Source: Methanosphaera sp. (GTDB taxonomy: Archaea; Methanobacteriota; Methanobacteria; Methanobacteriales; Methanobacteriaceae). Taken from it: 15,463 bases of DNA. Shown one piece after another: positions 1 to 15,064 of this stretch (position 1 is its first letter; the number at the start of each line of letters is the position of its first letter). The position numbers and the translations under genes were made by a program. The notes under the pieces were generated by a model. It was not told the origin of the DNA and searched no databases. It worked only from the letters and a program-made list of their open reading frames with translations. The stretch covers positions 1-15,463 of the forward strand of contig JAFRMD010000136.1 of the NCBI GenBank assembly GCA_017430835.1. Reading direction: 5' to 3'.

Positions 1-4
1 AAAA

Positions 5-112
5 ATGAGGGCTAATAGATCAAGATGGAATTATAGAGTATGCTTGGGAAAAACAGATTTTATCTTACCGGTCTTTGTAATACAACCCACTGAAAAAATA
101 TTAAATTTATAG
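5..112 (+). CDS. Short open frame at window edge, possibly the 3' end of a gene
   Basis: A frame of 35 codons starts at ATG 5 and ends at TAG 110-112. It stays open to the window edge, so it may be the tail of a gene that begins outside. The product is basic and aromatic (it contains RWNYRVCLGK and ends EKILNL). I recognise no family. No ribosome site can be judged because only four bases precede the ATG. It could equally be a chance frame. Confidence 0.22.
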   Translation: MRANRSRWNYRVCLGKTDFILPVFVIQPTEKILNL

Positions 113-409
113 GAAGTCAGACTGTATTTTGGACACTACCATAATTTATAAAATAAAAATAGAAAAAATAAAAAAACTAGTTTGTATAAAAAAACTAGTT
201 CGCCATAATTAAAAAAGATAAACTTAAAAATAAGATAAAGTAGTTCAAATAAAAAAAACCAGTTTGATTATAAATACCATATTGGATATTAAAAATCAAA
301 AAAATGGATAAAAATACTATCAAAAGCCGTTAAATATGAAGAAACATCATTCAATTAGTTAATCTTTTTTATTGTAATTCTGATTACTGGCTTAAAATCT
401 ATGGACATG
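113..409. other. Non-coding AT-rich flank beyond the distal end of the array
   Basis: Very AT-rich sequence with no convincing frame on either strand. It holds the AACTAGTT-containing direct repeat and poly-T run described as a putative minus-strand terminator. It lies at the leader-distal end of the repeat array, where the final degenerate repeat begins at 410. Confidence 0.5.
155..200 (-). terminator. Putative terminator for transcription leaving the array
   Basis: Read on the minus strand, the palindrome AACTAGTT occurs twice (the motif AAAAAACTAGTT lies at 171-182 and 189-200), and each copy is followed by a run of six or more T, with further T-rich sequence down to about 155. Archaeal transcription stops at U-tracts, so this is a plausible end for minus-strand transcripts that leave the array at 410. 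The palindromes may also pair with each other. This is inferred from composition only. Confidence 0.35.
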
Positions 410-446
410 AGTTAACCTTTCTTTGTAATTTTATAGTTTAATGAAC
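410..446 (-). repeat. Leader-distal degenerate repeat (R1)
   Basis: This is the only strongly diverged copy. On the plus strand it starts AGTTAACC instead of GTTTAACC and has two C-to-T changes (CTTTGT for CTTCGT, and AATGAAC for AACGAAC). Decay of the repeat farthest from the leader is typical of CRISPR arrays that grow at the leader end. It marks the old end of the array. Confidence 0.85.
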
Positions 447-458
447 ATAAATTCATAT

Positions 459-809
459 TCAACCCATACTTATATATAATTGTCCCAAATCAATAATCTG
501 TTGTAGTGTTAGACTACAACGACGCTCATCTACATTTCCTTCCATTAAATCGACAAATTCATCCCATGCTGTACCCATATCCACGAGGATAGCTAATTTT
601 TCAACAAAGTGAGTGCTTAATTCAATCATTCTATCTATTTCATGTCGGTACTTCCTGTACCAATCTAATCTTTCAATAGGATAACCGACAAACTTTGCAT
701 AGTTTATAATTTCTACAAGAGTATATTTACAACCATCTGCTTTCAGGGAGGAAGATAGTTTGTCATGTAATTCTTTGTATTCAGTTATTTCTTCAAGAAG
801 TGTTCTCAT
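459..809 (-). CDS. Spacer-1 gene: 116-aa protein of unknown function
   Basis: I recognise no family. The product is rich in charged residues and looks mostly helical, with no membrane segment or signal peptide; it begins MRTLLEEITEY and ends GQLYISMG. I chose ATG 809 because AGGTGA lies five bases upstream (815-820); an in-frame GTG at 818 would add three residues. The ribosome site starts one base after the repeat at 822, and the stop codon is 12 bases from the repeat at 410, so the gene fills its spacer almost exactly. It reads away from cas1, like most genes in the array. With no space for its own promoter, it must be transcribed from within or beyond the upstream repeat. Confidence 0.72.
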   Translation of the reverse strand: MRTLLEEITEYKELHDKLSSSLKADGCKYTLVEIINYAKFVGYPIERLDWYRKYRHEIDRMIELSTHFVEKLAILVDMGTAWDEFVDLMEGNVDERRCSLTLQQIIDLGQLYISMG

Positions 810-862
810 AATTATCACCTCGTCTAACCTTTCTTCGTAATTTTATAGTTTAACGAACGGTA

Positions 863-1006
863 ATGGCGGATACAATAATTCTAAAAATGATGGGTAATTT
901 CTTAGACGATTATGTAGACCCAACGAAAGAATTTACAAGTGATGATTTGGAAGAATTAGAACGAGTTATGCACATCGTTCATCTTGCACTTCAAATAAGA
1001 GAGTGA
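863..1006 (+). CDS. Spacer-2 first frame: 47-aa acidic protein or gene tail, inverted
   Basis: A frame of 47 codons on the plus strand, opposite to the other array genes, starts at ATG 863, only four bases inside the spacer. It has no ribosome site. The repeat places a stop in the same frame just upstream. The product (MADTIILKMMG...HLALQIRE) is acidic and helical, and unrecognised. It may be the 3' end of a longer captured gene with a fortuitous ATG. It is followed after six bases by a second frame, which looks like an operon junction. Confidence 0.5.
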   Translation: MADTIILKMMGNFLDDYVDPTKEFTSDDLEELERVMHIVHLALQIRE

Positions 1007-1012
1007 TTGAAA

Positions 1013-1117
1013 ATGAAATATCTTAGTACCACTTTAAGTTTGAACATGATGAGTTGTGATGAAGAAACACAACTCAACATAGAACCAATATGTGAAGACC
1101 AGTTCTGTATTGTTTAA
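1013..1117 (+). pseudogene. Spacer-2 second frame: gene start cut off by the repeat
   Basis: The frame begins at ATG 1013, preceded by GTGATTGAAA, a reasonable ribosome site, and runs 33 codons to the end of the spacer. The last codon GTT and the stop TAA (1115-1117) belong to the repeat at 1112, so the natural C-terminus is missing. The product (MKYLSTTLSL...EDQFCIV) is not recognised. I read it as the 5' part of a gene captured together with the end of its upstream neighbour. Confidence 0.45.
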
Positions 1118-1152
1118 CCTTTCTTCGTAATTTTATAGTTTAACGAACATAA

Positions 1153-1446
1153 TTAACGTACCCATCCCGTTTCAGTCACTCCTTCTATATATACAGTCCA
1201 TTTTCCATCAAAATTAACATATCTCTCTTGAAACCGTAAATTTCGTCTATCAAAAAAAGCTTCACTCCGTACATATCGAGGTTCAACAGGATCTGCTATA
1301 AACCAATCATACTCAGAATGTCCTAAAGTGATTATGCTATGTCTATAATATTCATATCCTTCTGGAAGTTTTATTTCATATGAAGCCATGTGTTCATTTA
1401 ACTTTACATCTATATTAAATTTTTCAAATAATTCTCTCAAATTCAT
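1153..1446 (-). CDS. Spacer-3 gene: 97-aa protein of unknown function
   Basis: The frame runs from ATG 1446 to a stop four bases from the repeat at 1112-1148. The product has an N-terminal helix (MNLRELFEKFNID) and then a beta-rich, aromatic part with many Tyr, Trp and Arg. There is no membrane segment. No ribosome site precedes the ATG, but a TATA box lies about 28 bases upstream, which fits a leaderless transcript, so this cassette seems to carry its own promoter. Family unknown. The size and make-up would suit a small immunity or inhibitor protein, but nothing in the sequence proves that. Confidence 0.7.
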   Translation of the reverse strand: MNLRELFEKFNIDVKLNEHMASYEIKLPEGYEYYRHSIITLGHSEYDWFIADPVEPRYVRSEAFFDRRNLRFQERYVNFDGKWTVYIEGVTETGWVR

Positions 1447-1468
1447 ATTATACTATATTGACATTATA

Positions 1469-1480
1469 ATATTTAAATTA
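1469..1480 (-). promoter_or_regulatory. TATA box inside spacer 3
   Basis: AATTTAAATATT on the minus strand matches archaeal box A. Its centre is about 28 bases upstream of ATG 1446, so transcription would start at or next to the start codon. It lies within the spacer rather than in the repeat. Confidence 0.45.
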
Positions 1481-1550
1481 TATAACTCATGTTATCATGG
1501 ACTGGATAATCATACCTCATAAGTTTAACCTTTCTTCGTAATTTTATAGT

Positions 1551-1808
1551 TTAACGAACATTATACTCGGGACAGGTTTTTTCTCCAAACCATCCATCCT
1601 GTGTTAGTCCGGTTGCGGCTTGTAGTTTCTTAACTGCTTCTACGGTTTTCGGTCCGTATTGTCCGTCGATGGTACTGGTGTAGTATCCCATCTTGGATAG
1701 TCCGGTTTGTAGTGTTTTTACATCGTCACCACTGCTTCCATTTTGGAGGCTTATTCCTTGACAGTTGAGGCCTCCACCTGCACTGCTTCCTGCTTTTCCA
1801 CTTCCCAT
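1551..1808 (-). CDS. Spacer-4 gene fragment with a PG_binding_1 domain
   Basis: From ATG 1808 the product is 85 aa with one peptidoglycan-binding-1 type fold at about residues 20-80: GISLQNGSSGDDVKTLQ, a GYYTSTIDGQYGPKTVEAVK segment and DGWFGEKTC. Such domains bind cell-wall polymers. The frame is also open upstream of the ATG through the rest of the spacer (1809-1912: a Ser-rich linker, then Thr-Thr repeats, then IKRYKIKQ) and into the repeat at 1913. At the other end the last codons GTT CGT TAA are the first nine bases of the repeat at 1523-1559. The spacer therefore has neither its own start nor its own stop and is an internal piece of a longer gene, probably a wall-binding or virus tail or lysis protein. 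It is visibly less AT-rich than its neighbours. Whether any protein is made is uncertain. Confidence 0.65.
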   Translation of the reverse strand: MGSGKAGSSAGGGLNCQGISLQNGSSGDDVKTLQTGLSKMGYYTSTIDGQYGPKTVEAVKKLQAATGLTQDGWFGEKTCPEYNVR

Positions 1809-2015
1809 CTGTTTTATCTTGTATCTTTTGATGGTTGTTGTGGTTGTGGTTGGTGTGGACTCGGTACTTGATGAGCTACTACTATCATCACTACTGCTGC
1901 TGCCACTGTCTAGTTTAACCTTTCTTCGTAATTTTATAGTTTAACGAACTCAATACTATATGTAACACTTTTAAAAAAAAGAGGGATTGGAGGGTGGTGA
2001 AAGATTTAATTGGTG

Positions 2016-2315
2016 CTATAATTTTGAGTTTCCATATTTACGTTCCCGCCATTCACGCTCATCATCCTCAATTGTACCCGTATAAATTTCTGCTTTATGG
2101 ATTAATTGTACAGGTGTTATACCTCCTAATTTTTCACAACATTCTACTATCAGATCATCCCAGATATCTGGTGAGACCCCTGACCATGCATCCAATAGTT
2201 CTTTTAAAATCTTTGCTTCAGGGTCTTTTCGTTTCAGTTGAATTTCACGTCTTAAACTCCTTTCATCTGAAGGACCATGGGGGATGTCCGAACGTATAAT
2301 ACTCGCACTAGGCAT
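2016..2315 (-). CDS. Spacer-5 gene: 99-aa protein, paralogue of the spacer-7 gene
   Basis: The start is ATG 2315, eight residues into the longest frame, because a GGAGAGAGAG ribosome site lies just upstream and because the paralogue in spacer 7 starts at the same MPSxSIIRSD. Shared blocks are SIIRSD, GPxDE, LRRE, CEKLGGIT and the C-terminal EDDEREWRE-KKYG type end. The protein is soluble and very rich in charged residues; family unknown. The region after the stop codon is also similar in the two spacers, so both come from homologous loci. The gene follows a truncated upstream frame whose stop is about 18 bases before this ATG. Confidence 0.75.
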   Translation of the reverse strand: MPSASIIRSDIPHGPSDERSLRREIQLKRKDPEAKILKELLDAWSGVSPDIWDDLIVECCEKLGGITPVQLIHKAEIYTGTIEDDEREWRERKYGNSKL

Positions 2316-2332
2316 ATAATCTCTCTCTCCTA

Positions 2333-2431
2333 TCAAATTTTAATTATCTTTGAATATACATCGTTTTTTTCCAAGACATTATAAATTTCTTTGTCAACCT
2401 TATTATTTATAGTTTCCAGTTCGTTTACACC
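2333..2431 (-). pseudogene. Spacer-5 fragment: C-terminal end of an upstream gene
   Basis: From the edge of the repeat at 2432 an open frame of 32 codons runs to TGA at 2333-2335, encoding GVNELETINNKVDKEIYN, then VLEKNDVYSKIIKI. It has no start codon and looks like a genuine Lys/Glu/Asn-rich protein tail. The stop sits directly before the ribosome site of the next gene, the usual operon arrangement. I infer that the captured fragment began inside one gene and ended after the next. Thirty-two open codons could still occur by chance. Confidence 0.4.
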
Positions 2432-2495
2432 GTTTAACCTTTCTTCGTAATTTTATAGTTTAACGAACATAAAAAAAATAGAAAGGATAAGATTT

Positions 2496-3086
2496 TTATC
2501 TGCGTCTGAAGTCATCATTACTTCTAGTATTGTAATTATAATCCTCAGAGTGATTCGATTCCTCCCGATAATCAGTTTTCTGATATGGATTCTTATGAGT
2601 CATATTATAATATATCACGTAGCTATTATCTCTAGGGAGTTGATTTTGATATTTTTCATAGATTCCTTGTTTTACTTTATGTTTTACATAATCGCTATAG
2701 GGGCTACAATTTACATTTAATTTTAAACATTCTACTTCATTTATTTCACTCATACGCCAAGCGGATTTGATAATAAAGTAATAAATAATGTTTAAGATTA
2801 TTATCTCTATTAGACATGTAAACCATAATGGTAGTATACTCTCTAGATACATGGGTATTCCAAACAGTATTATGAATTGGGGTATAACTGTGAATACCAT
2901 TATTGCTGCTGCGGTTGTACTTACTCCATGATCATAATGACTGCTGTTCATATAAAATCCATCACGGTCTCGGTCTGGTTCTAATCCGATACCTGTCTGG
3001 TACTCTCCCCACCATTTTGATATTGCATATACTGAGATTGCCATTGTCAATATCAGTAATGCGGTGGTTATATCTTGTATTTGCAT
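2496..3086 (-). CDS. Spacer-6 gene: 196-aa membrane protein of unknown function
   Basis: The start is ATG 3086, with GGTGA at 3096-3100. Three hydrophobic segments are visible: about residues 5-25 (TALLILTMAISVYAISKWW), 58-80 (AAAIMVFTVIPQFIILFGI) and 85-107 (LPLWFTCLIEIIILNIIYYF). An acidic loop with DRDRDG lies between the first two. The last 90 residues are hydrophilic and Asn/Tyr/Arg-rich, ending DDFRRR. The upstream 85 bases hold TATA-like sequence around 3141-3157, so the spacer may carry its own promoter. This is the largest spacer (703 bp). Family unrecognised; a small membrane effector, holin-like or inhibitor protein would fit, but none is shown. Confidence 0.75.
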   Translation of the reverse strand: MQIQDITTALLILTMAISVYAISKWWGEYQTGIGLEPDRDRDGFYMNSSHYDHGVSTTAAAIMVFTVIPQFIILFGIPMYLESILPLWFTCLIEIIILNIIYYFIIKSAWRMSEINEVECLKLNVNCSPYSDYVKHKVKQGIYEKYQNQLPRDNSYVIYYNMTHKNPYQKTDYREESNHSEDYNYNTRSNDDFRRR

Positions 3087-3246
3087 AATTATTTTTCACC
3101 TTCACATTTATTATAGTATAATGTCACTACTTTTTTCTTTGATTATACTATATTTTTTTTCATACATTTTAGTTTAACCTTTCTTCGTAATTTTATAGTT
3201 TAACGAACTAAAAAAAAAGATTGGGTAGTGAAAGTTTTAATTGGGG

Positions 3247-3567
3247 TTATGATTTGGGTTTTCCATATTTCTTTTCACGCCACTCACGCTCATCATCCTC
3301 CACATAACCTGTCCAAATATCAAATTTATGTAACAATTCCTCATACGTAATGCCACCTAATTTTTCACACATATAATCTGCTGTTTCTTCCCAAAACTTC
3401 TTATTTTCAGGTGTTTCATCAGGATATGGTGATTCCGTCTTAAGAAATTCTTTTATTATTTCTGCTTCTGGATCAGTTCTTTTCTTTTGATATTCACGTC
3501 TTAATATACCTTCATCTGCAGGTCCATTCGGTTTGTCAGAACGTATTATACTTACACTAGGCATCAT
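3247..3567 (-). CDS. Spacer-7 gene: 106-aa protein, paralogue of the spacer-5 gene
   Basis: The frame starts with two ATG codons (3567 and 3564) behind an AGGAGAG ribosome site; the second ATG aligns with the start of the paralogue. The product shares SIIRSD, GPADE, LRRE, DPEAE, CEKLGGIT and EDDEREWREKKYG with the spacer-5 protein and has a short insertion near residues 46-55 (TESPYPDETP). It is soluble, highly charged, and of unknown family. The 38 bases between its stop and the repeat at 3172-3208 resemble the same region in spacer 5. Two related but clearly diverged copies in one array point to repeated capture from related sources, not a recent duplication. Confidence 0.75.
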   Translation of the reverse strand: MMPSVSIIRSDKPNGPADEGILRREYQKKRTDPEAEIIKEFLKTESPYPDETPENKKFWEETADYMCEKLGGITYEELLHKFDIWTGYVEDDEREWREKKYGKPKS

Positions 3568-3645
3568 AATCTCTCCTATTCAATATGTATTATCCATGAA
3601 TCAAAATTGTTTAACCTTTCTTCGTAATTTTATAGTTTAACGAAC

Positions 3646-3933
3646 TCAATAATAAAATATTTCCTTCCATTGAGGAAATTTTTCCACAAATTCTTCAATT
3701 ACTTCCATTGGTTTAAGAAATTTCTTGCTCATTTCTCGGGTACTTTTTTCGCAAGCTGACGCATATGGCTCCTCCCAGATTAGTTCATCCATTTTCATAT
3801 CGAATTCAGGGGTAGTTCCTTTAAAAAAAATATCCCATGTATATCCAGGATGATCTACCGCATATTGATATAGTTCATCTTCGACTGAGTGTAAAAATTC
3901 CTCATTAGGAAGTAAATGTAATTTCTTCTTCAT
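3646..3933 (-). CDS. Spacer-8 gene (newest cassette): 95-aa acidic protein
   Basis: The frame fills the spacer nearly perfectly: ATG 3933 is five bases inside the repeat at 3939-3975, and the stop TGA (3646-3648) touches the repeat at 3609-3645. The product is acidic, with Trp and Phe, starts MKKKLHLLPNEEF and ends QWKEIFYY; no membrane segment, family unknown. There is no ordinary ribosome site. The TATA-like core of the upstream repeat lies about 27 bases before the ATG, so a leaderless transcript from the repeat is geometrically possible; the leader promoter would also read through it. As the leader-proximal cassette it should be the most recent acquisition. Confidence 0.7.
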   Translation of the reverse strand: MKKKLHLLPNEEFLHSVEDELYQYAVDHPGYTWDIFFKGTTPEFDMKMDELIWEEPYASACEKSTREMSKKFLKPMEVIEEFVEKFPQWKEIFYY

Positions 3934-3938
3934 GTTAT

Positions 3939-3975
3939 GTTTAACCTTTCTTCGTAATTTTATAGTTTAACGAAC
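3939..3975 (-). repeat. Leader-proximal repeat (R9)
   Basis: A perfect copy of the consensus, adjoining the leader that separates it from cas1. In a CRISPR-type system this is where new spacers enter. The 5-bp arms TTCGT and ACGAA inside the repeat can pair around a 14-base loop. Confidence 0.8.
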
Positions 3976-4086
3976 TCTTTATATTTTTATTTATTTTAAG
4001 TATTTAAATAGTTTTTTATCCTTTTTTTAAAAGTATTATTAGGAAGGATATTTATTATTACTTTTTTTGCTGTGCTTTCCTAATTT
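3976..4086 (-). promoter_or_regulatory. Leader between cas1 and the array
   Basis: An AT-rich non-coding stretch of 111 bp runs from the cas1 stop codon to the first repeat. It contains a TATA box at 4001-4010 and an inverted repeat, TATCCTT at 4017-4023 and AAGGATA at 4044-4050 (20 bases apart), that could be a protein or integration-complex site. Position and composition are those of a CRISPR leader. Confidence 0.6.
4001..4010 (-). promoter_or_regulatory. Leader TATA box directed into the array
   Basis: TATTTAAATA is a strong match to archaeal box A. Transcription would start about 25 bases on, near 3979, just before the first repeat, and read through the cassettes, seven of eight of which are in the sense orientation. 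Confidence 0.55.
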
Positions 4087-5091
4087 TTACCATTGTAAGT
4101 AAAATCCCCTATAATCTCTTTCATTCATTATGCTATCTTTTAATTTTCTGCTTTGTTCCTGCATTATTTCCTGATATGTCATTAAGTTATCATTATATGT
4201 TATTTGACTATTTATTTTATCCAATATTTTTTGTGCTAATACTTTTCTTGCTTCTATTTTTAATCTATTGGATCTTTTATCGATATCATCAATTTTTATC
4301 TGTCTATTGTTTATCAAGGATAATACGCTTTTATCTGTTATTTGTTGTCTGAATTCTTCTATTAAGTCATATGTTAAGCTTGTTCTACCTTTCAAATCAG
4401 AATGTAATAATCCACAGTATGGATCTAATTTTTCTTGTAGTATTATTCTTGTTATTTCTGAGGCAAGTATTGAATAACCATAGTTTAGCATAGCATTTAA
4501 CAAGTCATTTCTGGGTTTTTGATTTCTGTTTTGAAAGTTTATTTCTTTTGGTGTTAATTCTTTTATGCAAGCCCAGTATATTTTTGATGTTTCTCCTTCA
4601 ATGCCTCTGATTATGTTTTTCATGTAATTAATATTTTTGTTTTCTCTTATTTCAAGTTTATCCATTTTTTTTATGTTTTCTTTTATTTGTTTTTGTTTTT
4701 CTTGTACGTTACTGTATTTTTTAGTCTTGTTTAGAGTTTTAATTGTTGAATATTGGTTTTTTATTTTTGATTTTATTATTTCTTTTGATATTTTAACTCC
4801 GTTGTAGTTTTCACTTGTTTTGTATTGTTGTTTTCTTAGCATTATGTCATCAAAGTGTGGATTAGTGAGTATGTATTCTATTTGTCCATATTTGTTTATT
4901 GAGATTAGCGGAATGTTATGCTTTGATATTAATGTTAATGCATCGAATGTTACATATCCTTTTGCAAGTAATGTTATGTCAGTTACTTTTCTTGGAGTTA
5001 TTTTGTATATTTCATCTTCTTTTTCTTTTATTTGTAGCAATTCACTTTTTTTATGTATGGATTTATTGTATCCTTCGATTATTATTTTCAT
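4087..5091 (-). CDS. cas1: Cas1 integrase of a CRISPR-type adaptation module
   Basis: A protein of 334 aa, the usual length for Cas1. Cas1 with Cas2 forms the complex that inserts new DNA at the leader-proximal repeat. The family motifs are present in order: GIEGETSKIYW (Glu165), NRNQKPRNDLLNAMLNYGYS (187-206), LDPYCGLLHSD (His230) and SLTYDLIEEFR (Asp242, Glu245/246), so the metal-binding Glu/His/Asp site is intact. The N-terminal beta domain is at about 1-80, followed by a Lys-rich helical linker (100-155). The start ATG 5091 lies four bases after the cas2 stop without a ribosome site, suggesting coupled translation. Sequence style resembles archaeal type I Cas1. The array begins 111 bp downstream. 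The unusual point is the substrate implied by that array: fragments of 250-700 bp. Identification is firm; the role in gene capture is inferred. Confidence 0.95.
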   Translation of the reverse strand: MKIIIEGYNKSIHKKSELLQIKEKEDEIYKITPRKVTDITLLAKGYVTFDALTLISKHNIPLISINKYGQIEYILTNPHFDDIMLRKQQYKTSENYNGVKISKEIIKSKIKNQYSTIKTLNKTKKYSNVQEKQKQIKENIKKMDKLEIRENKNINYMKNIIRGIEGETSKIYWACIKELTPKEINFQNRNQKPRNDLLNAMLNYGYSILASEITRIILQEKLDPYCGLLHSDLKGRTSLTYDLIEEFRQQITDKSVLSLINNRQIKIDDIDKRSNRLKIEARKVLAQKILDKINSQITYNDNLMTYQEIMQEQSRKLKDSIMNERDYRGFYLQW

Positions 5092-5095
5092 GGTA

Positions 5096-5371
5096 TCATA
5101 TTATTTTGTATTTTTCTTCTTCTAGTTTTATTTTTTGTCCTATTTGTGTTATGTTTTTGTAGGTATTAGGTTTTAATGGTATTATTATTATCGTGTCTTG
5201 TAGATTGTTTTGTTTTGTCAGCTTTTCTTCTAGTATTTTTTGTTCTTCTTTTTTGATTTCACCGATAAATGTGTTTTCTGTAATTTCTCGAAATGCAAAT
5301 ATTTGTAATTTGTTTTTAATTTTTTCTTTATCTTTTTTGTATTTGATTTTTGTTATTATTATCATTTTCAT
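5096..5371 (-). CDS. cas2: Cas2-like protein, adaptation partner of Cas1
   Basis: From ATG 5371 the product is 91 aa, the normal Cas2 size; the longer frame only adds an implausible Lys-rich leader from a GTG. The ferredoxin-like layout is visible: strand MIIITKI, helix KDKEKIKNKL, then LQIFAFREITENTFIGEI (compare the family's QRSVFEG region), helix KEEQKILEEKL, and strand QDTIIIIPL. The Asp that usually ends the first strand is replaced (TKI), so nuclease activity is unlikely, though the structural role in the Cas1-Cas2 complex does not need it. The gene lies four bases before cas1 in the same direction. A TATA box about 28 bases upstream fits a leaderless transcript. Divergent for Cas2, but position, size and fold pattern agree. 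Confidence 0.8.
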   Translation of the reverse strand: MKMIIITKIKYKKDKEKIKNKLQIFAFREITENTFIGEIKKEEQKILEEKLTKQNNLQDTIIIIPLKPNTYKNITQIGQKIKLEEEKYKII

Positions 5372-5394
5372 ATTTTTATTTTTATATTTTTTGT

Positions 5395-5402
5395 CTTTTA
5401 TA
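5395..5402 (-). promoter_or_regulatory. TATA box for the cas2-cas1 operon
   Basis: TATAAAAG on the minus strand is centred about 28 bases before ATG 5371, the spacing expected for a leaderless archaeal transcript. No ribosome site precedes cas2, which agrees. Confidence 0.45.
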
Positions 5403-5491
5403 CTCCTATTTTTTCCAAGACACTTAAGATTGATAGAAGTAGTAAATATAATTAAGTACACGTATATGCTGTATATAAAAAATAGTATTTT

Positions 5492-5662
5492 TTAGGAGTT
5501 GAATTTTTCCACATTAAAATTGTGTATCATTTTGAAGATACTATAATATTTTTTTATTATCCATAGATTTTTTTTAAGATTAATTTTCATGAGCAAGTGT
5601 ATTACTTTTTTAAAATATTCATCATACTTCTTAGCCACATATTTTTTCAAAGACTTTTTCAT
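5492..5662 (-). CDS. Small lysine-rich protein upstream of cas2 (56 aa)
   Basis: A 56-codon frame starts at ATG 5662 and ends at TAA 5492-5494, in the same direction as cas2 and about 120 bp upstream of it. The product is strongly basic and probably helical: MKKSLKKYVAKKYDEYFKKV at the start, NFNVEKFNS at the end, with one Trp and several Tyr. There is no ribosome site; an inverted repeat lies 20 bases upstream over the expected promoter. I recognise no family. It could be a nucleic-acid-binding accessory of the module, the remnant of another gene, or a chance frame in AT-rich DNA. Confidence 0.4.
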   Translation of the reverse strand: MKKSLKKYVAKKYDEYFKKVIHLLMKINLKKNLWIIKKYYSIFKMIHNFNVEKFNS

Positions 5663-5681
5663 TTCATTTTTTTAGGGAAAA

Positions 5682-5717
5682 TTTTACTTCGTTATACAGC
5701 GGTATAGCGAAGTAAAA
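5682..5717. promoter_or_regulatory. 16-bp inverted repeat, possible operator or hairpin
   Basis: TTTTACTTCGTTATAC (5682-5697) and GTATAGCGAAGTAAAA (5702-5717) are reverse complements with one mismatch around a 4-base centre (AGCG). It lies 20 bases upstream of the small frame starting at 5662 and overlaps its expected TATA position, so an operator is likely. As RNA it would be a stable hairpin, and a run of A or T flanks each arm. The one G+C-containing block in this stretch makes it stand out. Confidence 0.5.
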
Positions 5718-5966
5718 AAATATGTCAATTTCAGGGTGGCTAAAACTATCAAAAATAAAGCGTTTAATATACATGTACTGAGTACTTTTTTGTATTTTAG
5801 AGAAGTTGGATTTTTTACCAAAAAATAGCATTATACATATGCAATTGTTATATTTCAAGTGTATATTGATTTTAAAAATTACGATGCGAAAAAAATTATA
5901 AAAAAGTAGAAATAATTAAATATATCATGATTTTTATTATACATTTTATCATCAAGTAACTCGTTA

Positions 5967-6194
5967 CTACATGAATGCAAAAATTTCTGGAGGAATATAA
6001 ATAATATCTCCTTTTTGAACTATTTCAGAGGTAGTATTTGATATAATGATTCCATGTGATGATTTATAACGAGACATAGCATCATTTATCTGACTTTTAT
6101 CCGTTTTAGCATTAACTAAGGCAATTTTATTGACTACAAAGTTTAACAATAAATGAGAAATGAAAGAATTTACATCCCCTTTTTTAAAGTTTAC
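5967..6194 (-). pseudogene. C-terminal remnant of an unidentified gene
   Basis: An open frame runs from just after a stop at 6195-6197 to TAG at 5967-5969 without an ATG start. The translation (GDVNSFISHLLLNFVVNKI, then ALVNAKTDKSQINDAMSRYK, then HGIIISNTTSEIVQKGDIIY and IPPEIFAFM) reads like a real protein end with a beta-rich finish. Its style recalls the C-terminus of archaeal AAA-type ATPases, but I cannot name the family with confidence. The 5' part of the gene is missing, and the flanks are non-coding, so I call it a decayed gene. Confidence 0.45.
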
Positions 6195-6520
6195 TTATAC
6201 TAAATCTCTAATTTATGATTTAAGTTAGCCTGATAATAGAAAATTATTTATTAATAATTAAATATATATTATTATTATATTATTATAATTAAATATATAA
6301 TATACATAGAAGTAGAAGGAGGAGGATTTGTTGTTGACATGAAATCTTAAAATATAATAAAATGAGTTTTAATCTTATATTAAAATTAAAACTATTATTA
6401 TTAATCGAATAAATTAATATAACTTGAAGTGAACACTTTTAAATGATTAACTGAGAATACATAGTAAAAAATACTCTTTGATTTGAAAATAAAAAGAATA
6501 AACCTATTTCAGGTGATTAA
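6195..6520. other. Intergenic region upstream of the giant surface-protein gene
   Basis: Extremely AT-rich and without a gene. It holds a 9-bp perfect inverted repeat (AGTTTTAAT 6365-6373, ATTAAAACT 6385-6393), a TATA-like TTTTAAATG near 6437 and the ribosome site AGGTGATT at 6511-6518 for the gene starting at 6521. A strong AGGAGGAGGA at 6317-6326 has only a three-codon frame behind it and may be left over from a lost gene. Confidence 0.45.
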
Positions 6521-9500
6521 ATGAATAATAAATTTTTAATAGTGAGTATAATAGTGTTTTTATTATCATTATCGATTGTATGTGCTTCAGATGTCAATGA
6601 ATCTCAATCTGAAAAAACACAAACACTTGAAGTGGATAATGATGATATTAACTCAAATGTAAATGATTATAATATTGTTTCTGAAAATATTGGAAAAAAA
6701 AATGAAAGTGATTCGGAGAAGATAAACAGGGAATATAAAAATAAAACAGTAAAAAGGGATGATGAATCATCAGATATCTCATTAATTGTTTCAGCTACTG
6801 ATATCAAATATGGTGATACTGCCAGTATATTTGGAACACTTAATAATAATACTGTTCCCTTAATGCAGGAAGAAATAACATTGCTGTTAAATGATGAGGA
6901 GTACACGACAACAACTGATGTGAATGGAGAATACAATTTCAGCATAACTGATTATGATATAGGATTAAATGAGGTGGTGGTATTTTATGATGGTGAAACA
7001 GACTTCGTATACAATATCACTTCATTTAATGTACGGAAATTAAATACAACGACGATAATAACTAATGCTATTGGAGTAGTATATCATAATGTAATTGAAT
7101 GTGCTATCGTTACAGATGAATGTAATTATGTTGTGAATGAAGGTTTTGTAACATTTATTCTAAGAAATCAAGTTATTGGAACAGCAGATGTTATAAATGG
7201 GCTGGCAATTCTGAATTTCGTGTATAATATCAGTGTAAATGATACTATACAGGCAATATATAGTGGTAGTGACATTTATAATCCGTCCAATAGCAGTCAG
7301 GTTATCGTAATTCGCAAGCAATATGCAAATATAATAATATCTCCGGTATTCTGTTATGTGAAGGATACTGTGACATTTACTGCATGGATACTCGATGAGG
7401 ATCATAATAATGTTTCATCAGGAAAGTGTGTGATGAAAATTAATGGTAAAACAGTCAAGGATGAAAATGGCAAGGTAATCTATGCTAAGGTAAACAATGG
7501 AATATCCTCATTTAATGTTACATTGCCGGCTACACTTGAGGGTATACATAATTATACTATAGTATATTCTGGAAGTAGTGCATATAATGGTAGTCGTACA
7601 ACAAATACGCTGGTTGTATATAAGCGAAATTATACGGTTAACTTAAATGTAACGCCGAATCCGACAAAAAGGGAAGGTACTGTTAACTTAACAACGACCA
7701 TAAACAGTTCCAATCTTAATATAAATGGTGGAAAAGTAATCTTTAAGTTAAATGGAAAAACCCTTAAATATGATAATGGAACGGTAATCCAAGTAGGTGT
7801 ACTGAATAATACAGCAGAACTATCATATACAATACCTGAGTCACTTAGCATAGGTGATAAGACAATGAAAGCTGTTTATATAGATGAATTGTATGATAGG
7901 TACGAAACAGAATCCACATTCACCATCGCAAAACAGGATATTTATATCGTGTTAGAAGAAATCGATTATTATGCCAATAAACTTGTAATCAAAGCAGATG
8001 TCTTCAATGAATTTAACCAAACAATCAACAGAAATATCACATATGCAGTAAAACTAAACGAAGTAACCCAATTAATATCTAATACGAATGGCAGTACAAT
8101 TAATGCTCAAATGTACAACAGATACAATCCAAACAATTATACATTATCTATTGTAATTGGTGAAAGTACTGGATATACTTCCTATATATATACAAATAAT
8201 ATCACATTACATAATCCAAAGATAAGCATTGAAAATGATGAGATATATCGCTGTAGTTACAATGCATTTACAATTTTCATACCATCTGAATACATCAGTC
8301 AAAACAATACTTTACTGTTATACTTTGATGAATTATTGTTATTAAATACAACAATTATCACAGATAATTTCACAGTAGATTATTACACGCCAATATTTTA
8401 TGAAGGAAACTATACCTTACATGCAATAATAATGAATGAAAATAATCAAAACTTAAAACAAGAAGACAAAAATATCACCATTTTATCAGATTATATCTAT
8501 GTCAACTCAAATGGGGACATAAACAGTAATGGAGATACGATAAACAATCCCACCACATTAGAAACAGCAGTTAATATAGCAAATGATAATCAGATAATAC
8601 TATTATCCACATTAACAGATACGGACACTTATCTTATGACAAATTTAACTATAAACTCTACTTCACACAACATTAAAATCATGGCTCAAGCAAATAAAAC
8701 AATAATATTTGATGGAAACAATACCAATAATTGCATGAATATTTCAAATGATTATGATGTTACATTCAGTAATATACGATTTATCAACGGATATAACAAT
8801 GATTGTGGGGGATTATTTGTAAATACTGGAAATTTGACAATAATTAACTCCACAATAGAAAATAATCATGCATTTTCAATGGCGGGTGCGATATTTAATA
8901 GGGGCAATATCACACTTCTAAACAACAATATCTCTGATAATTCCGTGATAAACAACTCTTACTCCCTAAATAATGATACATTGAACCATAAGGGTGGAAT
9001 AATCAAGAGTCTTGAAGGCAACATATTTTTAATAAACAACAGTATACATAATAACTCTGCTACTTTTGGTGGCGTAATTTCAACTAATAATAGTAGTGTA
9101 TACTTATTAAATAATACCTTTTCAAATAATGCCGGAAATATAGGTGGTGTGTTAGATTTATCGGACACATTATCAATACAATACAACAATATGTTCACAG
9201 GTAACTATGCAAAAAAGGCGTCAGTACAAAGATCCATATCTTCATTAGACTTTATCAACAATAACATTTATATAAACAATAACGCAACAGAAAAAGGACT
9301 ATTATTAATTGATGATTCCACTACCACAGTCGATAATTGTACATTTAACTATAATCATGCTAGATATGCATCTTCCATTTACTCTACAACAAGCAACTTG
9401 AATATCAACAATTCAGTATTCAATTATAACAATGTTTCAGTTCAGGGCGGAAGCATAATCAGTAAATATTCTATTGTCGTGATAAATAACACATTATTTA

Positions 9501-12500
9501 ATGAAAATAATGTTCTTAATGGTGTAGGTGGAGGGATATATTCTGAAAGTAGTAATTTATACATTGACAATTCAACATTCACCAACAATACCGCTAAATA
9601 CGGTGGAGCCATCTGCGTAATTGGAGAAAATGAAAACAGTATAGAAAACAGTCATTTCCTATCAAATAATGTATCAATCGATGGTGGTGCAATATACTCA
9701 TCCAAAAGCCTGTTATACCTCAACAATAATACATACACCTCAAACAATGCACAGAACAATGGTGGTGCAATCTCAGCAACAATGTTAAACACCCTAGAAG
9801 TAACAAACTCCACCTTCCAAGACAACAATGCAAACAATTACACAAACATACACACAATAGAAACAGTAACTCTTATCAATAATAACTCATTTGACTTAAA
9901 TACGATGAAAACATCCGTTATCACAAATGAACTAACAGGAAATATAAATGACAATTACTGGGGAACCAATACGCCTGATTTTATGACAATAACAAACAAC
10001 AACTCTCCGCAAACATGGAAAATAATAGAAAACAATGAATACATGACAATAAACAACACCAACACCACAGAAATACAAACAGGACTCAAAACATTATCCA
10101 TAACAAACAATAATAACAACCAAGTAAACACATTAATACCTAAAAAAGATATAAACCTAATAGTAGATGACATATTAACTATACCAGATACCAACATCAC
10201 AATAAACATAACATTTGATGAAAAAATAACTGCAACCGTTCAAATAATTTTCCCTGATGAAACAATCATACAACAATATTTAAGTAACACCAACCAAACA
10301 AGCATAACATATAAAACAGGCATTCAGGATGGTTTAGAACAGATACATATAAATTTAATCGAATCGGGTAGTTATGTTGCTAAAAGCAAGTTATTAAATA
10401 TATTTGTACAAGATGATTTATCATCATTTAATTTAAATGATTACAACATGGTTACATCAGTTAAAAATCAAGGCTCATCTAATGCGTGTTGGGCATTTGC
10501 AAGTCTTGGCACACTAGAATCAGCTATACTCAAATCATTTAATCAGACAACAGATTTCTCTGAAAATCATCTGAAAAACATTATCAACAAATACAACATC
10601 AACGGAACAGATGCAGATGCTAATACAGGTAGTTCACTACTTAGACCAATTAATTACCTGTTAAGCTGGACAGACCCAGTAAATGATTTGGATGATATAT
10701 TCTTTGAAGAAAGCATATTGTCTGATGATATTCCATCAACATTCCATATTCAGGACGTGGTATTTCTTGAAAATTACAACAGTTTAAATCCACAGGATAT
10801 AAAAAATGCAATATTAAAATATGGTGCATTATTTACAGATTTAAGTGTTAACGGAACTTGTGATCATACAAATAAGACAATAGAAGATAATCTAATAATA
10901 TCCACTACAGTAAATTATTATAATCCTACCATAACAAGTCCTAATCACGCAGTATCCCTTATAGGATGGGACGATACATATAGCAGATATAACTTCAATA
11001 ATAATGGAAGTATTCCTGTGGGTGATGGTGCTTTTATAATCAAAAATAGTTGGGGAACCGATAATGGAATCAGTGGATTCAACTATGTATCATATTATGA
11101 TAAAAGCCTCGGAACAGACGGATTCATAGCATTCCTATTAGATAATAGATGTAATTATTCCAATATTTATCAATATGAAACATGTAGTGTATACACATTT
11201 GACAGTAACAGTACTGAATTTACTATTGCAAACAATTACCATTCACGAAGTGCAGAACAAATACAAGCCGTAGGAACATTCTTCGATAAAGAATCCAACT
11301 ATACGCTTGTAATCTATAAAAATGGTGTAGAGCAGTATACTCAAGATGGTAATGTTAACCATGCAGGTTATCAGACAATAAAATTAAAACAATACATACC
11401 ATTAAATACTGGAGATGATTTCACGGCAATGTTAACAATTAAAAATAGTCATGTGAAGATATTTGTTCAAAACATCTTAACTGTAACTACTGAAAATATC
11501 ACGGATGAATCATTCATATTTAATAGCACAACATTGTATAATTTAAGAAAATACCATTTAACAGCATGTTTAAAAGTATATACCGGATATGACAATCAAA
11601 CAACACAAAACACCAACATCACAACCGGACAAATAAACATATACATACCACATAATGAACCTTCACAAATACCAGATATAATAAATAACCAGACAAATAT
11701 CAGTTCAAATAATTCACTATACACAATAAAAATACCGATAATATGGTATAGCCCAACAGGTACGGAAATATCATATGATAAATCCTTTGATATTGTCATT
11801 GCTAATGAAAGTTATTATTTCGAATCTGAACAATTAGTCAGGACTTATCTATCATTAAATGGAACTGCCATAATGAATTATGAAAATAAAGAGGGACAAG
11901 GATTCTACATCAGTAAAGAGGATGATGGTTCATTTATTAATATAGAATTAGTATATGATTTTACCGAAAATACCAACTTTTTAAGTATAATATTCAATAA
12001 TACCGATGGTTCTTTGGATAATAAGGCCAGTATCATAATAAATAATATTGTACTTTGTAATATAACTATTTATCCAGGATACAATTCTACTCTTGACTGG
12101 TATAGTATACAAGAGGATTTCATTACAATATTCTCTTATAACAACCAACAGATTCAACGAGTTGAACCTATATACTACTACAACGAATATAATATCAATG
12201 TTACTCAAACATACTTCATTACAAAGACAAAAATAAACACGACAGACTTCTTAAACACTAGCAATACTATTGTTAACCATTTAATTTATACTGCAGGTAA
12301 AGTGTTCTATTCAAATGATCTGCTTGCTGATACAATTGCAGAAGCATTAAATGTATCAAATCATAGAGAAAATTATACCGTAATCTTATGCGGATATAAT
12401 GGCAGAGTGTATATTAGTGCATTGGATCCCAATATGGGCATGATGATAAATGGGGCTAATGATAACAAGATAATGTTCAGATTCATCACATCTTACATGT

Positions 12501-13633
12501 TATCCATCTTAGAAGAAAAAGCGTTGGATTCATCTCATCCAGTTAATTCAGCCTTAAATAATATATTGGATGCTTTTGATACAAATTCATATAATGTCTT
12601 TGAGGATGAAAATTATCTTTACTTGGTTTTAAATGATAACATGAATACGACGTTGACTATGGATAAAAATACTGGTTTGGTTGTTGATTACATCCAGTAT
12701 GGAGATAATGTAATCCATGGCGTTCAAAGTGATGATGATTATACATTTACCGGATTTGAGATTGGCTCTCCAGAAGCTGAATTACAAAGAACCGTTGGAT
12801 CAGTATTAATGTCAGCAGCACCATACTGTGTGGGAATACCTGGTGTTGGCCCATTTCTAGTTCCAGTTGTTTATGTTGCTGGATTAGCTATATGTGCTGA
12901 TGCTTGTGGTGTTTTTAAACAATCTCCCTTTGAGAATAGTAGTCGATGGATAGATTTTGGTTGGGATGTTGCAACATCATTCCCAGTTGATCATATTATA
13001 GGATTCATAGCAGATAGTAAAAAGATAGCCGGCATCTTTAAAAACAGTGAAGTGATTGAACAATCAGCTAAAACAGTAGAAAACACCTTGAAATCCACCA
13101 TAAAAAGTACTGGTAATTACATTAAAACAAAATGCATGGAAATAGTACAAGATACAACATACTTTACATTAGATGAAATAACACATCTATCAAAGGTTAC
13201 CGAGAATATAGTTAAAGGATTTTTAAAAGTATTAAACCTGCCAGTACCCAAGACAGTTTATGATGAATTCTCCAAGGATTTGAATTTACTGTTTAAATTG
13301 GATACAGAACCACTAACAGAACATTCCATATTAAATGAGGCGAGTTATGAAATCTTTTGTTCCAGATTAGGTCAGGAAAAAAGTAATATAATGGGAATAT
13401 GTTATTTCTATTATGGATTCTCTAAAGAAGCTGTTGAAAACTTTTATCATGACTATAGTGAAAAGATAATTATGAACATAACTTTAAGCATGGAAAACGA
13501 AATATTAGAACTATTCCATGAACAATATAAAATTATTTCACTACTTAATTTAAATAAATCCCTGATGATTAATGATTATGAACATTATTATGTAGCAGAA
13601 GATTATTATGATACAATGAGCGTGGTATTATGA
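6521..13633 (+). CDS. Giant secreted adhesin-like protein with papain-like peptidase domain and variable C-terminus
   Basis: 2370 aa, starting at ATG 6521 behind AGGTGATT. Residues 1-22 form a signal peptide (cleavage likely after VCA). About 80-640: a series of Ig-like domains of roughly 95 aa, with repeated YSGSxxYNxS-type ends. About 655-1150: right-handed parallel beta-helix with Asn-rich rungs (NNSTF-NN, GGAI), closing with the NYWGTNTPDF motif common in methanogen adhesin-like proteins. About 1190-1290: another Ig-like domain. About 1295-1540: papain-like C1 peptidase with Gln1317, Cys1323 (NACWAF), His1476 (SPNHAVSLIGW) and Asn1509 (IKNSWGT), so the catalytic site is complete. It continues with beta-rich segments and a Gly-rich hydrophobic stretch (about 2093-2132). 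A connector (2161-2224) is copied downstream, and the last 146 aa have no recognised family. No wall anchor is seen. The protein is exported and probably binds host, diet or neighbour surfaces. The peptidase might release the C-terminus. The stop overlaps the next gene by four bases. Confidence 0.88.
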   Translation: MNNKFLIVSIIVFLLSLSIVCASDVNESQSEKTQTLEVDNDDINSNVNDYNIVSENIGKKNESDSEKINREYKNKTVKRDDESSDISLIVSATDIKYGDTASIFGTLNNNTVPLMQEEITLLLNDEEYTTTTDVNGEYNFSITDYDIGLNEVVVFYDGETDFVYNITSFNVRKLNTTTIITNAIGVVYHNVIECAIVTDECNYVVNEGFVTFILRNQVIGTADVINGLAILNFVYNISVNDTIQAIYSGSDIYNPSNSSQVIVIRKQYANIIISPVFCYVKDTVTFTAWILDEDHNNVSSGKCVMKINGKTVKDENGKVIYAKVNNGISSFNVTLPATLEGIHNYTIVYSGSSAYNGSRTTNTLVVYKRNYTVNLNVTPNPTKREGTVNLTTTINSSNLNINGGKVIFKLNGKTLKYDNGTVIQVGVLNNTAELSYTIPESLSIGDKTMKAVYIDELYDRYETESTFTIAKQDIYIVLEEIDYYANKLVIKADVFNEFNQTINRNITYAVKLNEVTQLISNTNGSTINAQMYNRYNPNNYTLSIVIGESTGYTSYIYTNNITLHNPKISIENDEIYRCSYNAFTIFIPSEYISQNNTLLLYFDELLLLNTTIITDNFTVDYYTPIFYEGNYTLHAIIMNENNQNLKQEDKNITILSDYIYVNSNGDINSNGDTINNPTTLETAVNIANDNQIILLSTLTDTDTYLMTNLTINSTSHNIKIMAQANKTIIFDGNNTNNCMNISNDYDVTFSNIRFINGYNNDCGGLFVNTGNLTIINSTIENNHAFSMAGAIFNRGNITLLNNNISDNSVINNSYSLNNDTLNHKGGIIKSLEGNIFLINNSIHNNSATFGGVISTNNSSVYLLNNTFSNNAGNIGGVLDLSDTLSIQYNNMFTGNYAKKASVQRSISSLDFINNNIYINNNATEKGLLLIDDSTTTVDNCTFNYNHARYASSIYSTTSNLNINNSVFNYNNVSVQGGSIISKYSIVVINNTLFNENNVLNGVGGGIYSESSNLYIDNSTFTNNTAKYGGAICVIGENENSIENSHFLSNNVSIDGGAIYSSKSLLYLNNNTYTSNNAQNNGGAISATMLNTLEVTNSTFQDNNANNYTNIHTIETVTLINNNSFDLNTMKTSVITNELTGNINDNYWGTNTPDFMTITNNNSPQTWKIIENNEYMTINNTNTTEIQTGLKTLSITNNNNNQVNTLIPKKDINLIVDDILTIPDTNITINITFDEKITATVQIIFPDETIIQQYLSNTNQTSITYKTGIQDGLEQIHINLIESGSYVAKSKLLNIFVQDDLSSFNLNDYNMVTSVKNQGSSNACWAFASLGTLESAILKSFNQTTDFSENHLKNIINKYNINGTDADANTGSSLLRPINYLLSWTDPVNDLDDIFFEESILSDDIPSTFHIQDVVFLENYNSLNPQDIKNAILKYGALFTDLSVNGTCDHTNKTIEDNLIISTTVNYYNPTITSPNHAVSLIGWDDTYSRYNFNNNGSIPVGDGAFIIKNSWGTDNGISGFNYVSYYDKSLGTDGFIAFLLDNRCNYSNIYQYETCSVYTFDSNSTEFTIANNYHSRSAEQIQAVGTFFDKESNYTLVIYKNGVEQYTQDGNVNHAGYQTIKLKQYIPLNTGDDFTAMLTIKNSHVKIFVQNILTVTTENITDESFIFNSTTLYNLRKYHLTACLKVYTGYDNQTTQNTNITTGQINIYIPHNEPSQIPDIINNQTNISSNNSLYTIKIPIIWYSPTGTEISYDKSFDIVIANESYYFESEQLVRTYLSLNGTAIMNYENKEGQGFYISKEDDGSFINIELVYDFTENTNFLSIIFNNTDGSLDNKASIIINNIVLCNITIYPGYNSTLDWYSIQEDFITIFSYNNQQIQRVEPIYYYNEYNINVTQTYFITKTKINTTDFLNTSNTIVNHLIYTAGKVFYSNDLLADTIAEALNVSNHRENYTVILCGYNGRVYISALDPNMGMMINGANDNKIMFRFITSYMLSILEEKALDSSHPVNSALNNILDAFDTNSYNVFEDENYLYLVLNDNMNTTLTMDKNTGLVVDYIQYGDNVIHGVQSDDDYTFTGFEIGSPEAELQRTVGSVLMSAAPYCVGIPGVGPFLVPVVYVAGLAICADACGVFKQSPFENSSRWIDFGWDVATSFPVDHIIGFIADSKKIAGIFKNSEVIEQSAKTVENTLKSTIKSTGNYIKTKCMEIVQDTTYFTLDEITHLSKVTENIVKGFLKVLNLPVPKTVYDEFSKDLNLLFKLDTEPLTEHSILNEASYEIFCSRLGQEKSNIMGICYFYYGFSKEAVENFYHDYSEKIIMNITLSMENEILELFHEQYKIISLLNLNKSLMINDYEHYYVAEDYYDTMSVVL
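13001..13191 (+). repeat. Connector segment of the giant gene, copied downstream
   Basis: This 191-bp stretch (residues 2161-2224, starting GFIADSKKIAGIF and ending DEITHLS) reappears at 14592-14781 with roughly nine in ten bases the same. Before and after it the two loci are unrelated, so the copied unit has sharp ends. Confidence 0.85.
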
Positions 13634-14520: not shown

Positions 14521-14588
14521 AGTGAGTATCTAAATTAGGATATTTATTCAATTTCATAGGGTAAAAACATGTGTGAAAGGTGATTAAA

Positions 14589-15064
14589 ATGGGATTCATA
14601 GCAGATAGTAAAAAGATAGCCAGCATCTTCAAAAATATTGAAGTAATTGAACAATCAGCTAAAACAGTAGAAAACACCTTGAAATCCACCCATAAAAAGT
14701 AGCGATAATTACATTAAAACAAAATGCATGGAAATAATACAGGATACAACATATTTTGCTGGATGAAATAACACATCTATCTAACCAAAAAACGGAAGTG
14801 ATTAAGTTTTCAGTTGACAGTCATGATGAAGATGAAGCCTGGGATGTATATAATGGAATACTGGATATTGAGGATTGTGATGATCCGGTTGCGGTACAAA
14901 ATATATTGGAAAGTGAAATAGATCCCTGATATGATTCGAGTTATTTTCATTATACTGATTATAATCCAAATAAGAATAGAGAAAATAAAAAAGATATTTG
15001 TAATACATGGACATGCTGTCTGCTGCTTATTATCCTATTTATCCTCTATCTAACAATTATTTAA
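14589..15064 (+). pseudogene. Orphan C-terminal module with an alternative tail, degenerate
   Basis: An AGGTGATT ribosome site precedes ATG 14589, which leads straight into a copy of the connector of the giant protein (14592-14781). The copy has an extra C near 14690 and lacks two bases near 14758, so the frame breaks twice. From 14782 the sequence has a different tail: NQKTEVIKFSVDSHDEDEAW and on to LESEIDP, then TGA at 14927-14929. In the same frame after that stop the translation continues (YDSSYFHYTDYNPNKNR, then a membrane-like CCLLLIILFILYLTII) to TAA at 15062-15064, so the original tail probably ended in a membrane anchor. It looks like a displaced, decaying alternative C-terminus of the upstream gene. 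Confidence 0.6.
14592..14781 (+). repeat. Second copy of the connector segment
   Basis: Partner of 13001-13191: 190 bp after one inserted and two deleted bases, with about a dozen substitutions, many at silent positions. This suggests the copy was under coding selection before it broke. Confidence 0.8.

Follow-up and report, generated by a model that had tools for sequence, protein, structure and literature searches.

In the 15,463-nucleotide (nt) stretch of Methanosphaera sp. DNA analysed here (assembly GCA_017430835.1, contig JAFRMD010000136.1, positions 1 to 15,463 of the forward strand; the window), a cas2-cas1 pair stands beside a leader and an array of the clustered regularly interspaced short palindromic repeats (CRISPR) type, in which 37-nt repeats enclose cassettes of gene length. 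Most likely, and we hold this view with high confidence, Cas1-Cas2 builds the array by inserting copied fragments of about 0.1-4.3 kb at the leader end, with duplication of the 37-nt repeat. To our knowledge, every known CRISPR adaptation system stores short pieces of near-constant length. Related genomes (G) and loci (L) are numbered where they have to be told apart, and c denotes a cassette.

The components follow one another on the minus strand from the start of cas2 at 5371 through cas1 and the leader to the repeats, which run from 3975 down to 410 (Table 1). Nine repeats (seven identical, one with one mismatch and one decayed with four changes) enclose eight cassettes of 253-703 nt each. 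An earlier reading of the letters of the window alone (the first-pass annotation) had counted nine repeats and a decayed one besides; nine is the total with the decayed copy included, and the spacer span that it gave agreed with the eight spacers found here. Its placing of cas2-cas1 beside the leader was borne out by Pfam, by a structure model and by the 111-nt leader with a TATA-like box. The leader carries a TTAGGAAA...TTCCTAA inverted repeat, and its TATA-like TATTTAAATA, at 4001-4010 and 25 nt ahead of the first repeat, suggests by its sequence and position transcription into the first cassettes. Nine short leaders were alignable, most of them with TTAGGAAA...TTTCCTAA, GTAATA and a TTTAAATA box close to the repeat; TGAGGAAA...TGTCCTCA was common to most of the long leaders of Methanobrevibacter (n = 10).

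Relatives of the window Cas1 were searched for in 149 related genomes, 81 of which had some Cas1 match and 23 a near-full-length Cas1 of the window type (at least 48% identity; the G001 copy is 82% identical and broken). Among protein clusters, the best 120 of 321 were all at least 49% identical to the window Cas1. In virus contigs, no relatives were found with the window Cas1 as single query, and an alignment query returned eight distant ones (23-36% identity). A tree of 109 rows, obtained from 129 loci by removal of 11 same-contig duplicates and 9 sequences shorter than 295 amino acids (aa), the broken G001 copy included, placed the window Cas1 in a 32-row Methanosphaera/Methanobrevibacter clade with a support of 100/100 and a long stem. 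A gene-length array was present in 24 of these 32 rows (in L056 on the opposite side of cas1), eight rows had no usable array, and none had an ordinary one, which is an affirmative result for the check proposed in the first-pass annotation, whether such Cas1 form a clade beside long-spacer arrays. Five of the eight arrayless rows reach a contig edge 2-267 nt past cas1, L041 and L048 show a leader with a single clear repeat, and L055 shows nothing. Labels had been set by hand before the tree (22 long, 10 with no array found, 0 short; L039 and L056 were added after it), so that rows outside the clade could not receive a long label, and a scripted rule was run as a check (repeat unit of 34-48 nt, first copy 60-260 nt after cas1, spacing >150 nt). 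By this rule, gene-length arrays were found in 20 of 32 rows inside the clade and in 0 of 77 outside, where 48 showed an ordinary period and 29 neither; it does not pick up L038, L039, L051 (second repeat decayed) and L056, whose arrays were counted manually, and it classes a 60-nt coding repeat in L042 as an ordinary array. Among the rows outside, L069 contains three repeats of III-A type, separated by gaps of 2390 and 75 nt, which we interpret as an ordinary array that has been interrupted.

The clade nests within the Cas1 of type III-A loci with ordinary spacers of about 36 nt. Its nearest Cas1 relatives belong to Methanobacteriaceae loci with an array period of about 73 nt, and the neighbours of six of them (47 of 60 open reading frames, ORFs, scanned) include Csm3, Csm4, Csm5, Csx1 and Cas6, which identifies these loci as type III-A. 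E165, H230 and D242 of the window Cas1, which we take to be the active site, were conserved without exception in a 43-row alignment of 27 clade rows and 16 rows of other Methanobacteriales Cas1; just three columns (93, 98 and 240) separate the two groups, so that no residue accounts for the lost length ruler. An AlphaFold2 model of the window Cas2 (mean predicted local distance difference test score, pLDDT, 83.5) matched solved Cas2 structures, and as modelled the protein keeps the Cas2 fold despite its Pfam score below the cut-off. Compared with four aligned III-A Cas2, the window Cas2 has K-rich residues in place of the acidic YDISDN loop found in these sister proteins. A 423-aa relative, P0117, carries Cas2 and Cas1 domains on a single chain.

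The clade modules resemble the type III-A adaptation module of Methanobacteriaceae in their cas2-cas1-array order, 37-nt repeats, three Cas1 residues and AA bias at spacer ends (below), and as in CRISPR adaptation generally there are intact Cas1 residues with a Cas2 partner and a leader followed by near-identical repeats that change at the leader end. They differ in the loss of the Cas2 acidic loop, in spacers of 0.14-4.3 kb against about 36 nt, and in that no Csm effector, Csx1 or Cas6 was found beside them. Upstream of twelve clade members, effector genes were not found and Cas2 was the sole Cas family among 25 of the 30 families matched (91 of 92 ORFs scanned, those longer than 1500 aa left out), CARF aside, whose model was matched by 2 of the 91 ORFs. 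A survey for Cas6 gave 0 of 23 genomes; among those missed were G070, G074 and G076, whose III-A operons would be expected to hold Cas6, and PADLOC returned six Cas6 matches in ORFs that include these operons.

Given this origin, the arrays could be an immune memory with oversized spacers, whose transcripts would be processed into guides serving an effector encoded at another site. Four clade genomes (G070, G072, G074 and G076) do hold a second Cas1 with an ordinary array, and several cassettes contain virus-like genes. We nevertheless consider this explanation unlikely: no effector genes were found beside the twelve members scanned among the 25 of 30 families above, the repeats of the long arrays are unlike III-A repeats, and the donors in the own chromosome described below would mean self-targeting.

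Eighty-six cassettes measured 139-4299 nt (median 730), and the 353 spacers of ten sister type III-A loci were mostly 34-39 nt; the short, near-constant spacers of CRISPR are thus missing from the clade arrays. As cassettes of 139 and 204 nt exist, no sharp minimum length is claimed as a sign of DNA looping. The cassette ends were compared in a set of 87, in which L227 c1, a second copy of L037 c9, was included. With both ends pooled and read inward, A had a frequency of 0.52 at position 3 (p 2e-5) and of 0.60 at position 4 (p 3e-10), its overall frequency being about 0.36; these p values are uncorrected. The pattern N-W-A-A was present at 0.29 of cassette starts and at 0.26 of cassette ends; at internal positions its mean frequency was 0.10, and the highest value reached in 2000 draws was 0.23. 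In the III-A sister spacers, T is correspondingly favoured at these two positions on one side (0.52 and 0.50, compared with 0.38) and not on the other; the repeats of two III-A loci, with 30 of the 353 spacers, were delimited too short, which touches spacer starts and not ends. We read this as a common end preference of one enzyme family, shared by the clade and its III-A sisters.

Close genomes differ from the leader-proximal repeat onwards. Across cas2, cas1 and the leader, the window and G001 match with 98.6% identity over 8709 nt; the match extends up to the final base of repeat 1 and starts again with the first base of window repeat 8, and between the two blocks the window holds seven cassettes and G001 one different cassette of 828 nt. 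The variant base of repeat 8 is present in both intact repeats of G001, and the seven repeats on the leader side in the window carry the other base, which is what growth at the leader end by copying of the leader-proximal repeat predicts. In G001, cas1 is broken, as is the copy of cassette 8. Two pairs of sister species behaved alike: between G023 and G066 (94.5% over 2904 nt) identity is lost at the last base of repeat 1, and between G058 and G038 (95.9% over 4334 nt) one base past it, with only two partial inverted matches between their arrays beyond. The strain comparison proposed in the first-pass annotation thus gave differences starting at the leader-proximal repeat in all three pairs, and no fixed cassette content with an unchanged leader end; nor does the repeat enclose 30-40 bp spacers in G001, the one genome in which it was looked for and where two copies lie 865 nt apart from start to start.

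These data also bear on whether another enzyme makes the long units, that is, homologous recombination, an unseen recombinase or a transposon acting on the repeats, with Cas1-Cas2 as a bystander. Arrays on contigs with no Cas1 match and an element present twice in G072 with the same repeats (both described below) would fit such an enzyme. The coincidence of the Cas1 clade with long arrays, the leader-end differences with repeat duplication, the beginning and ending of donor-matched cassettes at repeats and the end bias common to type III-A spacers all argue otherwise, and we regard it as very unlikely.

The repeats are near-identical inside one array and different between species, and where different species hold homologous DNA, its flanking repeats and its edges differ and both orientations occur (L037 c2 with L040 c2 and c3; L187 c4 with L188 c1 and window c2 and c4). 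Repeats that are alike within an array and unlike between species point to duplication at insertion, as in CRISPR, and not to carriage by the cassette in the manner of attC. Distal repeats decay in L038, L040, L046 and L052. The window repeat had no exact match in virus contigs. In L036 (2315-9948), two repeat types stand in series, as would result from a single change of the repeat that left the older type distally, and in L042 another set of identical repeats lies on the other strand (9964, 13564 and 15507) and faces the main array.

Donors were searched for with 34 cassettes of six genomes against their own genomes (the L037 query held c1-c7 whole), and full-length or nearly full-length chromosomal donors were obtained for six. 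In the single-contig genome G058, these are the donors of L037 c1 (483 nt, 100%), c5 (499 nt, 99.8%) and c6 (529 nt, 99.2%); in G072, of L043 c1 (333 of 335 nt, 98.8%) and c2 (440 nt, 97.7%); and in G074, of L035 c1 (positions 2-496 of 498, 92.9%). One of the searches scored three candidates per genome and missed the G058 donor of c1, which was found by a further search. The cassettes of L052, L046 and L040 had no full-length donor in their own genomes. Because the donor is still at its chromosomal site, the array holds a copy. Three donors lie wholly within an ORF and three across parts of two ORFs, and that of L037 c6 covers two long ORFs on opposite strands; since donor edges ignore genes, the captured unit is a DNA fragment and not a gene. 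The whole gene as unit of capture, as claimed in the first-pass annotation, was accordingly rejected for these donors, and intact genes are at most retained afterwards by selection.

Some captured DNA resembles that of viruses: portal, head protease and minor head families were matched in cassettes (95 ORFs scanned). A homologue of cassette 3 in G012 adjoins a 1519-aa tape-measure-like ORF and an endolysin-like ORF with PG_binding_1, so that this region may be provirus-like. Two cassette proteins searched for in virus contigs were not found there. Three adjacent cassettes of L046 (10630-13262) hold pieces of a single source that overlap and lie in both orientations, as would be expected had they been acquired at about the same time. 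In G072, two copies of a related element, L260 (5502, 9130) and L261 (5487, 8956), each carry two exact array repeats about 3.5 kb apart, with no recognisable leader, and a 290-nt sequence that starts exactly at a repeat boundary in L043 recurs at several sites of this genome.

A strict integron-like platform, in which each cassette would bring its own recombination site and a whole gene and be exchanged as a unit, is disfavoured as highly improbable. The integrase of integrons is a tyrosine recombinase, and attC is carried by the cassette. Six of the eight window cassettes do hold one complete small gene in forward direction, and homologous genes recur in the arrays of other species. No attC-like site accompanies each cassette, however, as the repeats are alike within and unlike between arrays even around homologous captured DNA; moreover, the edges of that DNA differ, both orientations occur, donors ignore genes, and no tyrosine recombinase was found among the window proteins scanned with Pfam. 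The likeness to integrons drawn in the first-pass annotation consequently holds for the outcome and fails for the repeats, which are duplicated at insertion. Capture of RNA, with cassettes as complementary DNA of transcripts, would explain the tight fit of genes in the window, where, as we read them, c8 begins at a likely ribosome-binding site and c2 and c3 end in a T-run. It is scarcely credible because the donors contained entirely in one ORF run antisense to that ORF in the reading direction from the leader, because L037 c6 takes in ORFs of both strands (a layout that excludes messenger RNA), and because Pfam found no reverse transcriptase domain on the window Cas1, the Cas1 domain being the only one.

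The gene content of the window was compared with random fragments. Six of its eight cassettes contain a complete forward ORF of 95-196 aa, as the first-pass annotation had said of the spacers in general (whole genes reading away from the leader); this fails for cassette 5, a gene fragment whose frame extends into both flanking repeats with its stop inside a repeat, and for cassette 7, whose 47-aa ORF is reversed. The longest complete ORF covers a mean of 0.75 of the cassette, against 0.40 in random fragments of equal length, and 0 of 5000 resamples were as high; the null value was 0.40 without giant genes and 0.47 with a provirus-like background, again with 0 of 5000 each. In Methanobrevibacter (31 cassettes) the excess was weak (0.49 against 0.39, P 0.002). 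The unusual richness of the window array in intact small genes suggests selection after capture.

Several observations weigh against this account. The role of Cas1-Cas2 as the inserting enzyme is deduced from its position and from the tree. In three of the 32 clade rows (L041, L048 and L055), no or one clear repeat was found though flanking sequence is present. Arrays with a like repeat and leader occur in G072 and G074 on contigs with no Cas1 match (gene-length arrays with their own leader copy in L267, 3132-5941, and L274, around 7639), so that adjacency to Cas1 is not required, which suggests that Cas1-Cas2 acts on them in trans. Part of the difference between the window and G001 could come from loss in G001, whose cas1 is broken, and 28 of 34 cassettes, as an upper bound, had no full-length donor in their own genome. 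In two other Methanosphaera loci (7 cassettes), ORF cover was 0.35 against 0.375 (P 0.61), and older and young cassettes did not differ significantly in intactness (18 against 30 cassettes, P 0.32); the lack of a gene excess and of an age trend weakens the claim of selection, so that selection for useful genes is plausible in the window and not established in general.

In the mechanism that we propose, a type III-A adaptation module would be the ancestor, from which both the length ruler and the effector would have been lost, and fragments of 0.1-4.3 kb would be inserted between leader and array, the 37-nt repeat being duplicated each time. The Cas1-Cas2 of the clade would connect each end of a long fragment with one end of the repeat; it would have kept the repeat ruler (37 nt) and lost the spacer ruler, probably with two DNA ends paired and the rest looped out. 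Capture would be blind to genes, and the cassettes would then drift, or be selectively kept if their genes help the cell, these genes being read from the leader promoter or from promoters of their own. The module would work as a gene-capture bank descended from a type III-A CRISPR adaptation module; the benefit to the cell and the expression from the leader are conjectured.

As to the use of such a bank, it is possible, and we offer this tentatively, that the arrays form a heritable store of gene-length DNA from viruses, rivals and the own cell, of which protective proteins are kept, for example for immunity to toxins, as a protein-level counterpart of CRISPR memory. In L187 c4 (L187 2986-4177), a gene with an HNHP motif is followed by a homologue (about 48%) of the genes in window c2 and c4, which hold the second gene of this type only. 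L043 c3 encodes a phage Mu F-like head protein (L043 11374-12888), whose C-terminal part has an ADP-ribosyltransferase-like match that stays under the Pfam cut-off. A 135-aa gene follows it, and related sequence is present in L082 c1 and also in L046 c1, in which a head gene was not found. By analogy with known toxin systems, from which the term is borrowed, the small cassette genes may possibly be immunity genes.

Table 1. Positions of the module and its array in the window, listed from cas2 to the terminal repeat
Feature	Position	Strand	Description
cas2	5096-5371	-	divergent; Pfam CRISPR_Cas2 E 1.8e-4, 22.0 bits vs cut-off 23.8
cas1	4087-5091	-	334 aa; Pfam Cas_Cas1 E 3.6e-66; E165, H230, D242 kept
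Leader	3976-4086	-	111 nt, between cas1 and repeat 1; from alignment of 9 leaders and sequence
Repeat 1	3939-3975	-	leader-proximal, intact
Cassette 1	3646-3938	-	293 nt; complete 95-aa ORF fills cassette; G013 contig end matches entire ORF (75% DNA)
Repeat 2	3609-3645	-	intact
Cassette 2	3209-3608	-	400 nt; 106-aa ORF, homologue of second gene in two-gene L187 cassette
Repeat 3	3172-3208	-	intact
Cassette 3	2469-3171	-	703 nt; 196-aa ORF; homologue in G012
Repeat 4	2432-2468	-	intact
Cassette 4	1950-2431	-	482 nt; 106-aa ORF, paralogue of cassette 2 (57% identity)
Repeat 5	1913-1949	-	intact
Cassette 5	1560-1912	-	353 nt; PG_binding_1 gene fragment (Pfam E 2e-17 for window 1551-1916)
Repeat 6	1523-1559	-	intact
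Cassette 6	1149-1522	-	374 nt; 97-aa ORF; protein search returned itself alone
Repeat 7	1112-1148	-	intact
Cassette 7	859-1111	-	253 nt; 47-aa ORF only, towards leader
Repeat 8	822-858	-	1 mismatch (GTTAGAC); same variant in both intact G001 repeats
Cassette 8	447-821	-	375 nt; 119-aa ORF; 98% match in G001, frame broken there
Repeat 9	410-446	-	terminal, decayed; present in G001 too

Elsewhere in the window, positions 6521-13633 encode a surface-like protein of 2370 aa that combines immunoglobulin-like repeats with a papain-family domain. Sequence near its C-terminus recurs downstream with about 92% identity (12998-13165 and 14589-14757), like the orphan tip of a polymorphic toxin, and further features near this protein lie at 13630-14520 and 14589-14929.

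Among known systems, the polyimmunity loci of polymorphic toxin systems (PMC3482391) are similar in their rows of small, possibly immunity, genes, and two of the window cassettes have their match in the second member of a toxin-tip-like gene pair; here the rows are built between CRISPR repeats beside Cas1-Cas2, and an immunity role, read from homology and gene order, is putative. Casposons likewise have a Cas1 homologue that would handle kilobase DNA. The clade modules differ from them in the duplication of a 37-nt repeat next to cas2-cas1; their cas1 is placed outside the repeats, and their cassette ends have just a weak AA bias in common. No cas1-carrying element with inverted ends was seen, no inverted-repeat search having been made around the whole locus. 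The M. mazei casposon, according to PMC6977970, is bounded by terminal inverted repeats and flanked by a target duplication of 14 bp, and no Cas2 is needed for its transposase to work. With integrons, which are reported in Archaea as well (PMC9668308), the module has in common that gene-length cassettes are lined up next to an integrase and a promoter-like region; it differs in that Cas1-Cas2 takes the place of a tyrosine recombinase, the repeat is copied from the array and not borne by the cassette, and capture ignores genes. Unlike reverse transcriptase-Cas1 modules, the window Cas1 has the Cas1 domain alone. In agreement with the first-pass annotation, which knew of no described system of this kind, no description was found in the full-text literature searched, in which subscription journals and preprints have little coverage, so that an earlier description is possible.

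If the proposed account is true, an immune integrase would have been turned into a gene-capture device, the reverse of the proposed route from casposase to Cas1, and Archaea would have a gene-acquisition platform unrelated to integrons. The spacer ruler would become directly testable by comparison of sister proteins, and the Cas1-Cas2 concerned may insert kilobase DNA at one defined site. The module is common in its family, a near-full-length Cas1 of the window type being carried by 23 of the 149 relatives searched (one of them broken), and its hosts are methane-making archaea of the gut.

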